Of a stretch of 64,000 bases of DNA, positions 54,777 through 64,000 are shown piece by piece. Every line of letters starts with the position of its first letter. The first letter of the stretch is position 1. This DNA is from Nitrosopumilus ureiphilus. Lineage in GTDB: Archaea > Thermoproteota > Nitrososphaeria > Nitrososphaerales > Nitrosopumilaceae. Below the pieces are notes generated by a model. That model did not search any database. It saw only the letters and a list, made by a program, of their open reading frames with translations, and was not told where the DNA came from. The position numbers and the translations under genes were made by a program. The stretch lies in assembly GCF_013407185.1 (NCBI RefSeq), contig NZ_CP026995.1:1962954-2026953 (forward strand), given 5' to 3'.

Positions 54777-54958
54777 CAAAATTAATTATGAAGCATACGT
54801 ATAAAATGATTTAGATGAATGATATAGTTTGTATAAACTCGTTTGTTGTTTGCTACCTTACATTATAGAACTTTGTAGAATAAAAATATTTGAAAAAATA
54901 CAAAGTGGTTTCTATGGTAGTTTTTTACCGTATAAACACAAAATTCTAGGCTCAAATC

Positions 54959-55447
54959 CTATAATCTTGAAAGTCCTATGATACCAAGTATTATTGTTAT
55001 AGTTGTTCCAATCCAAAATTTCCAATGATCTTTTGCAAAGTTTTTAATTTCTCGTTTGATTTTACGGTTTTTCTTTACTTTAGACACTTTCTTTTCATGA
55101 CATTCTAGACATATCAACTCAGAAAATAATGGAGATTTCTCTTTAGATAAATCATAAAAATCATCAAAACTATCACTATCAGAAATAATAATATCATCAG
55201 GCTCATCAGCATCAGCATCAGCATCAGAATCTGAATCTGAATAAAATGTCAGTCCACCATGTTTGTGTGCAAGTCTCTTACACTTTGGGCATATCTCAGT
55301 GTATGGTTTTTCTCTCTTCTTAATACATTCAGCACAAAGTAATAGATTAGTACCATGTTTTGTGTAATGTGTGATTTTTCCTACTTCAGTATCTAATTTT
55401 TTGCATTTTTCACAAGCATTACTTTCTCGCTTAAATTCAATAGGCAT
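54959..55447 (-). CDS. Zinc-finger protein with acidic linker and C-terminal membrane anchor
   Basis: The 162-residue protein, from ATG 55447 (MPIEFKRESNACEKC), has Cys pairs at CEKCKKLD, LLCAECIKKR, ICPKCKRLAH and ICLECHEKK, probably two zinc modules. An Asp/Ser/Ala-rich run (about residues 78-105, SDSDADADADEP) separates them. A basic stretch precedes one C-terminal helix (FWIGTTITIILGIIGLSRL). It is the last gene of the five-gene Shedu-like operon. No enzyme motif; it may be a membrane-tethered sensor or adaptor. Confidence 0.7.
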   Translation of the reverse strand: MPIEFKRESNACEKCKKLDTEVGKITHYTKHGTNLLLCAECIKKREKPYTEICPKCKRLAHKHGGLTFYSDSDSDADADADEPDDIIISDSDSFDDFYDLSKEKSPLFSELICLECHEKKVSKVKKNRKIKREIKNFAKDHWKFWIGTTITIILGIIGLSRL

Positions 55448-55448
55448 G

Positions 55449-55691
55449 TTATTTCCCTCTAAACAAATCTCCAATGTTCTTTAAAAATCCAGAAAAAGAT
55501 TCGGCCTGTTTCATTTCTTCTGTTTTCTTTTTTGCTCGATAAGCACTCTGTTTAGTTCGTTCTGTTTTTCGTTGGAGTTTTACTATTTCTCGTTTCTTTT
55601 TTATTCCATATATTGTTCCTATTACACCTACAACATATCCAATAATACCAAAAATAAGATAAAAATGCTGAAGAGTAACTTGGTCGGCCAT
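55449..55691 (-). CDS. Small membrane protein with basic coiled coil
   Basis: The 80-residue protein has one N-terminal helix (FYLIFGIIGYVVGVIGTIYG) and then a Lys/Arg/Glu coiled-coil tail (KREIVKLQRKTERTKQSAYR). It is packed in the operon with 1- and 2-base gaps. Such anchored coils could join larger complexes; no family recognised. Confidence 0.65.
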   Translation of the reverse strand: MADQVTLQHFYLIFGIIGYVVGVIGTIYGIKKKREIVKLQRKTERTKQSAYRAKKKTEEMKQAESFSGFLKNIGDLFRGK

Positions 55692-55693
55692 TG

Positions 55694-55906
55694 TTAATCT
55701 CTGTCAGCCAGATAAGCGATTAACAATCCAAGTAGTAATGCAGCTCCTACAGCAGCAATAGCGTTACCAGTAATGTTTGCTTGTTGTCTTTCTTTTTCTA
55801 AAATAACTCTTAGTTCATCAGCTTCTTTTACAGATAAAACTCTAGTACGTAATTTTTCTTGAAGTTCATTTTTTCTTCTAATTTCTTCTGGGGTTAGATT
55901 AACCAT
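55694..55906 (-). CDS. Small helical protein with C-terminal membrane anchor
   Basis: The 70-residue protein has a charged helical head (LTPEEIRRKNELQEKLRTRV, SVKEADELRVILEKERQQAN) and a C-terminal membrane helix (AIAAVGAALLLGLLIAYL). Its start overlaps the previous operon gene by 8 bases. Unrecognised. Confidence 0.65.
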   Translation of the reverse strand: MVNLTPEEIRRKNELQEKLRTRVLSVKEADELRVILEKERQQANITGNAIAAVGAALLLGLLIAYLADRD

Positions 55907-56216
55907 TATTCTTATCCCCCTTTATCATATCATCAAAAACCTCAACTAAGTCTGGGTTTTGACGAAGAAATTCAGCTAATTGAGGTTTATTTTTAACAAG
56001 ATCTTCCCAATCTGTCAATATGTCTCCTTTTTGTAAAACAGTGGCAACTGCTTTACGTTGTTCTTTTAATTTTTTATTTTCATTTTTTAGTTTGGTATTT
56101 TCATTATGTGATCCTGCATACCATTTTCCAACAAAAAATGCGATGGCTACTGTTCCACCAACAATTGCTCCAATAATTTGTACTAATGATGATAACTCAA
56201 AGGTGAGTTCTGTCAA
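55899..56216 (-). CDS. Small membrane protein with coiled coil
   Basis: The 105-residue protein has an N-terminal membrane helix (LVQIIGAIVGGTVAIAFFVG), a coil (KLKNENKKLKEQRKAVATVL) and a soluble acidic end (DILTDWEDLVKNKPQLAEFL, NPDLVEVFDDMIKGD). From TTG 56216, 53 bases after the Shedu-like gene. It probably works with the nuclease-like protein, by linkage only. Confidence 0.65.
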   Translation of the reverse strand: MTELTFELSSLVQIIGAIVGGTVAIAFFVGKWYAGSHNENTKLKNENKKLKEQRKAVATVLQKGDILTDWEDLVKNKPQLAEFLRQNPDLVEVFDDMIKGDKNNG

Positions 56217-56269
56217 TTTGGTTCCTTCTTTATTTTTTTAGTGTAGTCCAAGTTCCCATGTAAAATAAA

Positions 56270-57763
56270 TTAAATTTCTATTTCAAGTTTCTCTTTAATG
56301 TCATGTTTTTTCCAAAAGTCTAATGTTGATCTGGCCTTTGCTATGATATCATCATATGTTAAAATCTCAATATTAGGAAATTCTTGTACTAGTAATTTGA
56401 AACGTTCCTTTTTTTCTTTATCCAAATGCATTCCTTTGGTGGAACCTATCACTGCAATACCTTTAGAGTGCAAGCCTCGAAACTTCTGTTCTATATTATA
56501 ATCTGCGGCTTGAAGAATACCATCATATACTTTTTTTGAAAATTCTCCATTGTTTTTGAAAATAGGATCGTTTGCATCTTCTAATTCAATTACAACACAT
56601 TTGTCAAATCCATCTAGTTTTTTGATTATAAAATCAGGATGCTTTCCACTACCTTCTAATCTTGTTTCATTTGTTCTATTTTCGTTAGAATCAAAATCAG
56701 ATAGCCTTTCTTTATCAAAATATTCTATACTCATTAACCAATAATGTTTTGTTAGAAATTTGTGAATTTCTGCTTCATCATTAGTCTCTGATTTGTTATG
56801 TTTATCAATTAATTTTTCAAATTCTTTAAGACTTTTAGATAATTTTTCATATCGATTAAACATTGTGTCCATTGCAGGTAATTTCTTGATAATTTTTTGT
56901 AATTGATCTGCGGGAAGACTTGCAATATATTTCAAAAATTCAGAGGACTTGTTTGATTTAAATAAATTCTTTAGTAATATTTCAAATTCTTTTGTGGGTA
57001 AATCTTTGATTACAGGTAAAAACATCATTAATTGTTTTTTTGGAGATTCAGGAGTCAGTTGGGATATTTCTTTAACAGTATCACGAGCGAGTGCAGACTG
57101 CATCACAATAGATCTCAAGTCCTTTTTTTCTTCACTTTCAGGCATGCTTTCATATTCGCTTAGTATTTCCTCGATTACTCCATGGTAGGAGTTTTTCAGT
57201 TCCTCAATTAATGATGAAGATGGTTCATTTTCAAAAAATGATGTTAACACTTTTTTTTGGAAATACCATCTAACTTTCCAATAATATTTGCTAACTTTCA
57301 AATTTTTGATTGCTAGTGATATTTCTTCTGTGTATTGTTGAAATGCATCAAAATCAACGTACACTTTAGTTATTCCTTTGACAGTTTTTAGATGGAAGGG
57401 TTTGGTTGACTGGCGTCTGTAGAAAATTAACTCAAAGTTATCTAAATCACCATATTCTTTTACCAAGAAATTAAGCAATGTTCTTAATCGTGTAATGCCA
57501 AACTTCATCCATGCTTGTCTTTCTCTACCTGACGGCGTGAATGAAAACTGAATTATTTTAGATTTTAATGTAGGACTTTGTTCCCAGTAATCCCTGCCTG
57601 TCAGAAACTTGTCTTTTATTTCCTGAATATCTGTTGGAATATCATATTCAGAATTCTTGTTTCCTCTAATATCTGCCACTGCTTCTTTTAGATCATCTGC
57701 GTTAATTGGTTTGTTATCAAAATCTTCTTTCTTTAATTTCACTGATTTTTTAATTTCTTCCAA
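56270..57763 (-). CDS. sduA: Shedu-like (SduA/DUF4263) defence nuclease-family protein
   Basis: The 497-residue protein has a C-terminal domain (about 325-480) with the DUF4263/SduA order: Glu332 in AEIHKFLTKHYWL, Asp377 in KHPDFIIKKL, VVIELEDAN with Glu393, Gln418 in ILQAADYN, SKGIAVIGST and IEILTYDDIIAKA. This is the PD-(D/E)xK fold of the Shedu anti-phage nuclease. The usual Lys of ExK is Glu395, so activity may be altered. The N-terminal 320 residues are mostly helical and, at 220-300, regular, probably an assembly or sensing region. TTG start. It leads an operon of four small membrane proteins, so the target is likely sensed at or delivered to the membrane. Confidence 0.8.
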   Translation of the reverse strand: MEEIKKSVKLKKEDFDNKPINADDLKEAVADIRGNKNSEYDIPTDIQEIKDKFLTGRDYWEQSPTLKSKIIQFSFTPSGRERQAWMKFGITRLRTLLNFLVKEYGDLDNFELIFYRRQSTKPFHLKTVKGITKVYVDFDAFQQYTEEISLAIKNLKVSKYYWKVRWYFQKKVLTSFFENEPSSSLIEELKNSYHGVIEEILSEYESMPESEEKKDLRSIVMQSALARDTVKEISQLTPESPKKQLMMFLPVIKDLPTKEFEILLKNLFKSNKSSEFLKYIASLPADQLQKIIKKLPAMDTMFNRYEKLSKSLKEFEKLIDKHNKSETNDEAEIHKFLTKHYWLMSIEYFDKERLSDFDSNENRTNETRLEGSGKHPDFIIKKLDGFDKCVVIELEDANDPIFKNNGEFSKKVYDGILQAADYNIEQKFRGLHSKGIAVIGSTKGMHLDKEKKERFKLLVQEFPNIEILTYDDIIAKARSTLDFWKKHDIKEKLEIEI

Positions 57764-58818: not shown

Positions 58819-59076
58819 TTATACCAAATTTTTTAAAATTTTCTTTCCATTAGATGTCAATTCATACAGTCGTCCTTTCTTAAATTCAGGATTAAGACAA
58901 ACTATTAGATTCTTTTCTACCAACTCTGCTAAGGTATTACTTACATGTGAGAGAGAGATGTTAGTTTCCTTTGCCATTTCTGCCGGAGTCAGTTTCTTTC
59001 CCTCTAAGGCTTTGATTATTTTGGTCCTGTAGGAACTTGCCTTGATGTAACCGAGCAGAATATCAGATTTTGTCAA
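58819..59076 (-). CDS. Winged-helix transcription regulator (ArsR/MarR-like)
   Basis: From TTG 59076 (TKSDILLGYIKASSYRTKII) the protein has 85 residues with a helix-turn-helix LTPAEMAKETNISLSHVSNT, wing VCLNPEFKKGRLYELTSNG and end KKILKNLV. The longer frame to 59139 lacks a start that makes sense. It is divergent from the secreted protein at 59155, with little room for two promoters. It may regulate the 58202 gene or its neighbours. Confidence 0.75.
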   Translation of the reverse strand: MTKSDILLGYIKASSYRTKIIKALEGKKLTPAEMAKETNISLSHVSNTLAELVEKNLIVCLNPEFKKGRLYELTSNGKKILKNLV

Positions 59077-59154
59077 GTGCTTAATCTGTACGTAAATGGT
59101 AATATGGCAATTAGCACGCTTTAAATGCGGTTTACACACGAAATAAACACAATA

Positions 59155-60894: not shown

Positions 60895-61049
60895 AAAAGA
60901 TTGCAACTGTAAAATTGCATAGATTTGAGGGCAAGTGGTTTCTGCTTGCCTTTGATATTGCATGGGGTAATAAATTAGAAAACGATAATTTTGATGTGTA
61001 CATCTCTAAGAACAGATTACACGCCAGAAGTCAGCCAATAATACAATGA
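60891..61049 (+). CDS. Small protein of the ATPase operon (52 aa)
   Basis: The 52-residue frame (KKIATVKLHRFEGKWFLLAF) has strands and one aromatic cluster. Its first ATG lies in the stop of the RHH-like gene, and its stop overlaps the ATPase start (ATGA at 61046). The tight coupling shows a real operon; no family recognised. Confidence 0.65.
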   Translation: MKKIATVKLHRFEGKWFLLAFDIAWGNKLENDNFDVYISKNRLHARSQPIIQ

Positions 61050-62287
61050 GTTCAGAAATTAATCCAGACTACGTAAAACTAGTCTTGGAGAAAAGGCAGA
61101 GACTCAGGTTAGTACATGAGAAGTATTTCCCAGGAAAGTTTTGGGTGTTGGATTCGTGTCTGGCAGTACGAAACATACTCCAGATAGAGGATATTTCCTT
61201 GCCTTTCATGCTGGTTTTGCTGGGTCAGCCATCAGCAGGCAAGTCTACAATGATATCCTTTGTGGATTTTCCTGAAGATTGCTACTCGGTGGATTCGTTC
61301 ACTCCAAAGGCAATGGTGTCACACATGGCCAACAAGACTGAGGATCAATTGGCACAGATCGACATGCTAAGCAAAATTGCAGACAAAGTCTTTTTGACAT
61401 CAGATCTTGCCCCGATATTTTCTGTAAGAGAGGACAATCTCTTGGAAATTATTGGAATGCTGACTCGTATCTTAGATGGCAAAGGATACAAGAAAGATTC
61501 CGGTGCACACTCACAAAGAAAATACGATGATGTCTTCTTTGTATGGATTGGTGCTGTAGTTGAAGTCCCAAGAAAGGTATGGCCAATCATTGCGTCTCTT
61601 GGTCCGAAGATCTACTTTTTGAGAATAGATACAGAGATTTCTTTTGAGGAAGAACAAGAAAAGATTCTTGAGAACTTGGAAGGAATCAGTTACGAGCAAA
61701 AAGTAACTGAGATCAAGCAAGCAGTAAAGGAATATCTTGATGTCTTAAAGGAATTTCCAGGAATGGAGAATGGGAAGATCCCTTGGAACAAATCCAAAGA
61801 AGACAAACGTATCATGGTAAGACTGGTACAGTATTCTCAGTTGTTAGCAAGACTAAGAGGCCATGTGCCAGTAGAATATACCAAAGGTCAGGGTGGTGCA
61901 AACTATGGATTTCTTCCACCCATAATTGAAGATGCAAACAGGGCAACTGTTGCACTTTACAATTTGGCAAAAGGTCAAGCAGTTAACTGTGCTCGCAACT
62001 ACATTACAGAAGATGATTTACCAACTGTAAAGAAAGTAGTATTGTCTAGTGCTCCAAAAGAAAGAGTGGAATTACTCAAACTTTTAGTTGAGAACAATGG
62101 TGAACTGACCTCAACCAAATTCATGGAAGTGAAGAAGGTAACAAGAATGACTGCACTAAAGACCATGAAGCAGTTGGAGATACTTGACCTTGTAGACGAA
62201 GTAAAGATTTCAACTGTGACAAAGCCATGCACTGCGATACGATTGAAAGAGCACTTCATGTGGCTGGTTGAAGAAGGGATACAATAG
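61046..62287 (+). CDS. P-loop ATPase with C-terminal winged helix
   Basis: The 413-residue protein has Walker A LVLLGQPSAGKSTMISFVDF (about 55), Walker B-like VFLTSDLAPIFSV (about 112), the loop FVWIGAVVEVP (about 168) and a C-terminal winged helix (LLKLLVENNGELTSTKFMEV, TALKTMKQLEILDLV) for DNA binding. It looks like a replication-type or plasmid ATPase of mobile elements rather than a housekeeping enzyme. Higher G+C than the neighbours supports a foreign origin. It is the last gene of the RHH-small protein-ATPase operon. Confidence 0.75.
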   Translation: MSSEINPDYVKLVLEKRQRLRLVHEKYFPGKFWVLDSCLAVRNILQIEDISLPFMLVLLGQPSAGKSTMISFVDFPEDCYSVDSFTPKAMVSHMANKTEDQLAQIDMLSKIADKVFLTSDLAPIFSVREDNLLEIIGMLTRILDGKGYKKDSGAHSQRKYDDVFFVWIGAVVEVPRKVWPIIASLGPKIYFLRIDTEISFEEEQEKILENLEGISYEQKVTEIKQAVKEYLDVLKEFPGMENGKIPWNKSKEDKRIMVRLVQYSQLLARLRGHVPVEYTKGQGGANYGFLPPIIEDANRATVALYNLAKGQAVNCARNYITEDDLPTVKKVVLSSAPKERVELLKLLVENNGELTSTKFMEVKKVTRMTALKTMKQLEILDLVDEVKISTVTKPCTAIRLKEHFMWLVEEGIQ

Positions 62288-62357: not shown

Positions 62358-62762
62358 TTATTTTTCTAAAACTTTTCTTATGATCCTATCAATGCATATT
62401 CCTGTTCTTTTCTCAATATCGTGCTCCCAGAATCGGAGAACCGACCATCCGTCTCTTCTGAGTTTTCTAGCAATCTTGGCATCACGTCTCATATTTCGTT
62501 CAATCTTATCTATCCAGAACTTCTGCCTAGGTTTTTTCTTCTTGTGATAATTGTATCCGTGCCAGAAATCTCCGTCGCAGAAGATTATGATCCTTTCTTC
62601 TTCTAGGACAAAGTCAGGATTCCCAAACATCTTTGGATACATCTTGTATGAAAAGCCCAGTCCTTTGAGAATCTCGTTCATCTGCAAGTCTATCTTTGTG
62701 TTGGTTCCCCTGATCCGGGACATTACCCATGATCTCTTTTCAGGAGTAAAGATGTCAGTCAT
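62358..62762 (-). CDS. vsr: Very-short-patch-repair (Vsr) type DNA endonuclease
   Basis: Vsr cuts at T:G mismatches left by deamination of 5-methylcytosine and usually travels with a C5 methylase. The 134-residue protein has the family blocks RSWVMSRIRGTNTKIDLQ (about 10), FGNPDFVLEEERIIIFCDGD with Asp catalysis (about 46), the FWHGYNYHKKKKPRQKFW zinc/His region (about 67), KIERNMRRDAKIARKL and VLRFWEHDIEK. The length fits. It is on the opposite strand, 51 bases from the proteolipid gene; a restriction enzyme follows at 63.4 kb. Confidence 0.9.
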   Translation of the reverse strand: MTDIFTPEKRSWVMSRIRGTNTKIDLQMNEILKGLGFSYKMYPKMFGNPDFVLEEERIIIFCDGDFWHGYNYHKKKKPRQKFWIDKIERNMRRDAKIARKLRRDGWSVLRFWEHDIEKRTGICIDRIIRKVLEK

Positions 62763-62812: not shown

Positions 62813-63118
62813 ATGAAAACTATCGTCATGTTACTTTTGGCAGCATCAGCAATTTCAATTCTAGGTTCGACTGGGGTTGCATTTGCTCAAGAAGATGGTG
62901 CATCTAGTGGTGACTCTATGAAACTACTCGGTGCGGGCTTGGCATTTGGTATTGCAGCAGGCGGGGCAGGAATAGGTCTTGGCCAAGTAGGTGCAGCAGG
63001 TCTTGCAGTAATCAGTGAGAACCCAGCTTTACAATCTAAGGTGTTCATCTTCGTAGGTATGGTCGAATCAATCGCAATCTACGGCATTGTCATGATGTTT
63101 ATTATTCTAGGACAGTAG
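62813..63118 (+). CDS. atpK: A-type ATP synthase proteolipid subunit K
   Basis: The 101-residue protein forms the rotor ring. It starts with a cleavable-looking signal segment (MKTIVMLLLAASAISILGST) and then has two membrane helices, the Gly-rich AFGIAAGGAGIGLGQVGAAG (about 45) and KVFIFVGMVESIAIYGIVMM. The ion-carrying Glu is in the second helix (MVESIAIYG, about residue 89). It is alone here, between Vsr and the restriction-type genes, far from atpH at 43 kb. Confidence 0.93.
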   Translation: MKTIVMLLLAASAISILGSTGVAFAQEDGASSGDSMKLLGAGLAFGIAAGGAGIGLGQVGAAGLAVISENPALQSKVFIFVGMVESIAIYGIVMMFIILGQ

Positions 63119-63433: not shown

Positions 63434-64000
63434 ATGCCAAACAATTATGTCGATTTTGTTTCAGATGACGATTTTGAGTCCTGCGTCAGCTGGGTAGTAA
63501 GTGGGTATCAACAAAACGGCAACAGCGAGAGAAATGGAATCGATCCATTCAAAACTGTGTTTGACATGTACAATAAGGATATGTCATTTGCATCTTGGAA
63601 GAAGGCGGAAGAGGTTAGGCAAAATGACAAGACGGTAAACAACAAGGTAGGGGAATTCCACCAAAAACTTCTTGGCAGTGTTGATGGTTGGAGAGATCTT
63701 CAGACAGGGGATGTTGCAGATATTTGCAATGATGCTGAAACAATTTTTGTAGAGTTAAAGAATAGATGGAATACTGTAAAGGGATCAAATATGATTGACA
63801 TGTGGAAAGATCTTCATGACATAGTTACTAACTCACACAGAGGATCTACAGCGTATTGGGGATTCATTAACGCAAAAAATGGCAGCAGTGGCGAAAGTGC
63901 GTGGACAATTCAAGGAAAAACACATCCCAATGTGAAAAAGATTTGGGGGAAGAGTATTTACAAAATGATAACAGGGAAAGATGCAGCATTGGAAGAAGTG
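63434..64000 (+). CDS. Type II restriction endonuclease, Eco47II/Sau96I-like (cut by window edge)
   Basis: The frame opens at ATG 63434 and runs past the end (189 codons seen). It shows the family pattern as I remember it: NYVDFVSDDDFESCVSWVVS, IDPFKTVFDMYNKDMSFASW, KVGEFHQKLLGSVDGWRDL, DICNDAETIFVELKNRWNTV (catalytic Asp and Glu-x-Lys) and a YWGFINAKNG strand. Enzymes of this family cut GGNCC. A C5 methyltransferase should lie just beyond the window, and Vsr is 0.7 kb away. Confidence 0.85.
   Translation, partial: MPNNYVDFVSDDDFESCVSWVVSGYQQNGNSERNGIDPFKTVFDMYNKDMSFASWKKAEEVRQNDKTVNNKVGEFHQKLLGSVDGWRDLQTGDVADICNDAETIFVELKNRWNTVKGSNMIDMWKDLHDIVTNSHRGSTAYWGFINAKNGSSGESAWTIQGKTHPNVKKIWGKSIYKMITGKDAALEEV

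Follow-up and report, generated by a model that had tools for sequence, protein, structure and literature searches.

A Shedu-family protein on a 13.66-kb integrated element of Nitrosopumilus ureiphilus is likely solitary defence cargo, followed by probably separate small membrane-protein genes

Within the 64,000-nucleotide stretch of Nitrosopumilus ureiphilus DNA analysed here (the window), a gene encoding a Shedu-family protein (A) is followed on the same strand by four small genes (B, C, D and E). We consider it likely that a 13.66-kb integrated element carries A as cargo, that A is a Shedu-type defence protein standing on its own, and that the small genes are separate passengers of the element. 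What links A to Shedu defence cargo is an SduA_C domain scoring above the cut-off, together with matches to PADLOC SduA models and a profile link to solved Shedu proteins; the reading is also favoured by the Shedu genes of two related loci, one of which (G305) stands alone and the other (G126) within a type I restriction-modification locus; and the element itself is indicated by direct repeats and an integrase, and by a site that is empty in 22 of 24 relatives.

An earlier note on this DNA had described five packed genes on the minus strand, and we reproduced both the coordinates and the gaps, which in order from A to E are 53, -8, 2 and 1 bases (Table 1). Its description of the downstream products also held. 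In particular, B, C and D are proteins of 70–105 residues with one predicted membrane helix each, placed towards the N-terminal side in B and D and towards the C-terminal side in C, and E carries CxxC pairs and a predicted C-terminal helix, in keeping with a zinc-finger protein that has a C-terminal anchor; the helices of all four were predicted by hydropathy and by eye. E comprises 162 amino acids when read from an ATG and 171 when read from an upstream TTG, and the ATG start is supported by a second copy of E in the same genome, which begins MGIEFKKEGNVCERC. Since each of A–E has at least one detectable homologue elsewhere, we take all five to be genes and not chance open reading frames. As had been proposed for three of them, the small proteins resemble no known family: B, C, D and E match no Pfam or NCBIfam family at the cut-off, and none of them has a convincing match in PADLOC or PHROGs.

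Table 1 Features of the gene array and of the integrated element (window positions; positions above 64000 lie beyond the window end).
Feature	Coordinates	Strand	Evidence or remark
Left direct repeat, AATGATTTAGAT, 12 bp	54805..54816	.	Right copy at 68460-68471 (L012:14414-14425), just past the window end
E, 162 aa, zinc-finger-like, acidic linker, predicted C-terminal membrane helix	54959..55447	-	Relatives in 21 of 95 genus genomes
D, 80 aa, one predicted N-terminal membrane helix, basic tail	55449..55691	-	Relative in G298
C, 70 aa, soluble helical N-terminal half, one predicted C-terminal membrane helix	55694..55906	-	Family built from relatives; overlaps B by 8 bases
B, 105 aa, one predicted N-terminal membrane helix, then charged coiled-coil-like tail	55899..56216	-	blastp match to the G260 B protein; position before C elsewhere
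A, Shedu-family protein, 497 aa	56270..57763	-	SduA_C/DUF4263 in Pfam; PADLOC SduA; seven-member alignment; PDB profile matches
Winged-helix regulator	58819..59139	-	Pfam HTH_45 9e-7, above cut-off
413-aa protein with P-loop-like motif GQPSAGKS	61046..62287	+	No Pfam match at E 0.1
Vsr mismatch endonuclease, companion of the C5 methyltransferase	62358..62762	-	Pfam Vsr 1.3e-22; PADLOC Vsr 1.3e-19
ATP synthase c subunit, second copy	62813..63118	+	Protein identical to the chromosomal copy
Eco47II-type restriction endonuclease	63434..64000 (gene to 64105, past the window end)	+	Pfam RE_Eco47II 7.3e-46
C5 cytosine methyltransferase	64102-65124		PF00145 2.4e-89
Tyrosine integrase	67280-68476		PF00589 1e-13

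The SduA/DUF4263-type domain that had been read at the C-terminal end of A was recovered by profile searches: SduA_C (DUF4263) matches residues 328–473 in Pfam (1.7e-13; 51.5 bits against a cut-off of 27), and several PADLOC SduA models match the protein (1.8e-13 for SduA). In a search of 400 genomes we found seven SduA_C proteins of the order, A among them, and a profile of these seven recovers the solved Shedu proteins 8ps4 (3.3e-7) and 8ti9 (4.5e-5). Neither was found with A as a single query, so it is through the family profile that A is tied to the solved Shedu proteins. The closest homologue of A, encoded by G305 in another genus, shares 45% identity with it; no homologue was present in the viral contigs, plasmids and phage records searched, and a scan of genome contigs with A matched 18 stretches, with no relative among them. 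A single-sequence AlphaFold model of A (mean pLDDT 43.7) was too poor for use.

The putative active-site residues D377, E393 and Q418 (A numbering) are invariant in all seven aligned SduA_C proteins. At the position of the expected catalytic lysine of PD-(D/E)xK enzymes, however, A and the G305 and G074 proteins carry a glutamate (E395 in A, giving the motif ExE), whereas the other four carry lysine. Because of this substitution we file A as an SduA_C-domain protein and not as a proven Shedu nuclease. The same substitution, seen in A and two relatives, would fit A being a Shedu-fold protein that lacks nuclease activity and serves the element as a DNA-binding regulator or decoy, but we think this unlikely: the three other residues are invariant, the ExE form is kept in the G305 protein of another genus, and ExE active sites occur among PD-(D/E)xK enzymes, for example BamHI. 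We regard nuclease activity in A as plausible; it cannot be assumed, given both the glutamate at position 395 and the finding that a K557A substitution abolished defence by the SduA protein of Vibrio cholerae (PMC12137116).

A resembles described Shedu proteins in its above-cut-off C-terminal SduA_C domain, in keeping the D, E and Q of the nuclease core, in having a variable N-terminus and in lying near other defence genes; it differs from them in its glutamate in place of the usual catalytic lysine and in an N-terminus that matches no described sensor. The N-terminal ~300 residues contain no recognised domain. This region varies widely among Shedu proteins and is credited with setting their specificity, and E. 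coli SduA senses DNA ends (PMC12904381). The type I-D Shedu protein SduA of V. cholerae offers a further comparison: like A it is a single-gene Shedu on a mobile island beside an independent restriction system, but it carries a GHKL ATPase domain at its N-terminus as well as the canonical lysine K557, both of which A lacks (PMC12137116). The genes neighbouring V. cholerae SduA turned out to form a system independent of it, and we infer the same pattern for the window.

If A behaves as the characterised Shedu proteins do, it would oligomerise, its N-terminal region would sense invading DNA (DNA ends, in the case of E. coli SduA), and the nuclease fold at its C-terminus would then cut that DNA, with the outcome that host and element would be protected from competing viruses or elements. 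A would travel with a type II restriction-modification set made up of the Eco47II-type endonuclease, the C5 methyltransferase and Vsr. B–E would happen to lie downstream of A and may be co-transcribed with it, with D and E as singletons and B–C as one unit. The tight packing of the array counts against A being solitary, as it would favour joint expression.

The element lies between the riboflavin synthase gene (ribE) and a TPR gene. In 24 relatives of the genus with ribE flanks, none of the element's genes adjoins ribE, and in 22 of these the DNA flanking ribE matches sequence that lies ~13.6 kb further on in N. ureiphilus, mostly the TPR gene at 68486-69190; of the remaining two, one is a truncated contig (40 bases) and the other has a different sequence. 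Consistent with insertion at this site, one relative (L097) has a single copy of AATGATTTAGAT where its site is empty. Several genes of the element belong to no recognisable family, and no viral or conjugation hallmark genes were found among the main element genes scanned. The 413-residue protein with the P-loop-like motif is possibly the replication or packaging protein of the element. By its size, short repeats and cargo the element fits the cryptic integrated elements of Thaumarchaeota, which, in the part of that description available to us (PMC6563490), share with it a terminal tyrosine integrase, short direct repeats, a length of about 14 kb, restriction-modification cargo, and zinc-ribbon and winged-helix genes. 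The Shedu gene, the B–C pair and the ATP synthase c-subunit copy, by contrast, are not named in that part of the description, a silence that does not prove their absence from such elements.

The c-subunit gene of the element and its chromosomal counterpart (2069137-2069439) are 93.1% identical in DNA, with 21 differences over the exact 306-base reading frame, all of them silent, and no similarity outside it. The other genomes of the genus that we examined have one copy of this gene. That the differences are exclusively silent suggests selection on the protein.

Among the small genes, B and C form a recurring unit. In the window and in G135, G250, G260, G140, G309, G205 and G092, C is preceded by a short gene that encodes a predicted N-terminal membrane helix and overlaps or touches it by a few bases; at the seven loci other than the window, the short gene was assigned as B by this layout. 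The B proteins are poorly conserved, and among the eight sequences compared by blastp similarity was detectable between the window and G260 (2e-6), between G135 and G260 (2e-22 or better) and between G205 and G092 (3e-25). The N-terminal half of C has the motif LTPxxxxRKxELxxKLxxxxLsxxEAxELxxxLExE. A protein of G340 joins a C-like segment to a two-helix membrane segment, and in a Micrarchaeon (L045:5637-7159) a two-helix membrane gene is followed after a 1-base gap by a relative of C and then by an HNH nuclease gene. No homologue of C was present in the viral contigs, plasmids and phage records searched. B and C form one conserved unit that is mobile between contexts. They probably encode a two-protein membrane complex, since their genes overlap at almost all loci and, at one locus, C is joined to a different membrane domain. 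As for the role of the small genes, we would tentatively suggest that they serve mobile elements in an accessory or exclusion function located at the membrane, this being the most likely general kind. A likeness of C to SHOCT (short helical C-terminal) motifs was seen by eye, and Pfam gives no SHOCT match.

What surrounds B–C varies: DDE transposase-like genes in G135, G250, G205 and G140, restriction-modification genes in G260, an integrated element that has an integrase of its own in G309, an HNH nuclease gene in the Micrarchaeon and the Shedu gene in the window. This variety raises the possibility that B–C is a general membrane adaptor that pairs in turn with different DNA-acting enzymes, the Shedu gene being one client. 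In line with such a role, in G135 and G250 B–C lies downstream of a DDE transposase-like gene and shares its strand, in G205 it comes after a 58-residue open reading frame behind such a gene, again on the same strand, and in G140 it faces one, and the Micrarchaeon C relative sits between its membrane gene and the HNH nuclease gene. We nevertheless regard the adaptor role as improbable, as no nuclease-type gene lies directly beside C in G092, G193, G309 or one of the G197 copies, C occurs at none of 28 further loci of that transposase family, and the transposases are in any case common (they are found in 109 of 250 genomes of the order), mobile islands being places where such genes cluster anyway. 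We give a distinctly small chance to the broader proposal that archaeal mobile elements possess, in B–C, an undescribed membrane module of two proteins, which couples to one DNA-cutting enzyme or another (Shedu, HNH nuclease and DDE enzymes); were it true, the window would show a single client of a modular device that is linked to the membrane and serves defence or mobility.

At four of the loci (L031, L054, L057 and L056), B–C adjoins SWIM-type and DDE (IS240-like) transposase genes, which are diverse and have no clear terminal repeats. The idea that B–C is a passenger of the adjoining transposase was rejected as a rule, on the lack of clear terminal inverted repeats and on the same 28 loci without C. 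Open reading frames with a predicted membrane helix lie behind this transposase family in 10 of 28 cases, compared with 30 of 185 background genes (Fisher p 0.02, uncorrected and post hoc), a weak excess on which we do not rely.

The earlier note had gone on to propose that the four small proteins are partners of Shedu in a new defence layout, and had itself named a lack of conservation of the gene neighbourhood among the findings that would refute it. Here the comparison went against it, since the small genes are not kept beside Shedu-like genes. At the six other SduA_C loci of the order, that of the closest homologue (G305) included, tblastn found no relative of B, C, D or E, nor did a profile search in the case of C; with only one close homologue of A in the sampled genomes, the close-range test of co-conservation amounts to that one locus, at which the Shedu gene is solitary, with type I restriction and YgjP-type peptidase genes nearby. 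Conversely, C is present at 13 loci, and the 12 outside the window all lack an SduA_C gene. The genomes with relatives of C number 2 among 95 of the genus, 9 among 300 of the order and 6 among 250 of the family (the sets overlap), and the Micrarchaeon adds one more. In reciprocal profile searches of all fetched loci, SduA_C and C co-occur at the window locus only. D has one relative in the genus (in G298, 51% identity), which stands apart from any relative of A, B, C or E, and the third gene of the G135 array has no similarity to D. E belongs to a family that is common in the genus away from Shedu, and its second copy in the same chromosome lies between biotin genes. These counts come from one genome per species, from draft genomes with broken contigs and from loci of limited length, and as small proteins diverge fast, relatives of B and D may have been missed.

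The Shedu gene has close neighbours in the window and no conserved partner at the other SduA_C loci, and we find no support for a defence layout of five genes. In the window the operon-like packing is real, yet it is one arrangement within a mobile element and not a conserved system. That B–E anchor A to the membrane, or detect damage there and set its nuclease free, is very unlikely: the one-strand gaps of 53, -8, 2 and 1 bases, the predicted membrane helix in all four downstream products and the existence of membrane-linked nuclease defences such as Zorya (PMC12904381) would favour it, but no small gene of the set accompanies the other six SduA_C genes, and B–C, D and E each occur elsewhere without Shedu. 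With Zorya and Kiwa the array shares only the idea of combining membrane proteins with a DNA-acting protein; it has no similarity to their PADLOC models and no conserved linkage.

The finding is a mostly ordinary one, of modest interest for the ExE active site and for the B–C pair. Through it, a Shedu-family gene whose active site has the ExE form is located on a mobile element of ammonia-oxidising archaea, a group in which defence against viruses has received little study (in the literature searched, Shedu and Nitrosopumilus were not named together). It also cautions against mistaking a chance array of genes for a new multi-gene defence system. B–C adds a small, conserved and uncharacterised membrane-protein family that can be traced by its overlapping genes and one fused form.

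Two further observations were made by eye at related loci. Near the G305 Shedu gene, three packed genes (L011:422-2402) look like a JAB-type peptidase, an E2-like protein and a ubiquitin-like protein, and are possibly a ubiquitin-like defence operon. Near the fused B–C protein of G340, two packed genes (L125:6141-7516) resemble an AbiE-type toxin-antitoxin pair.
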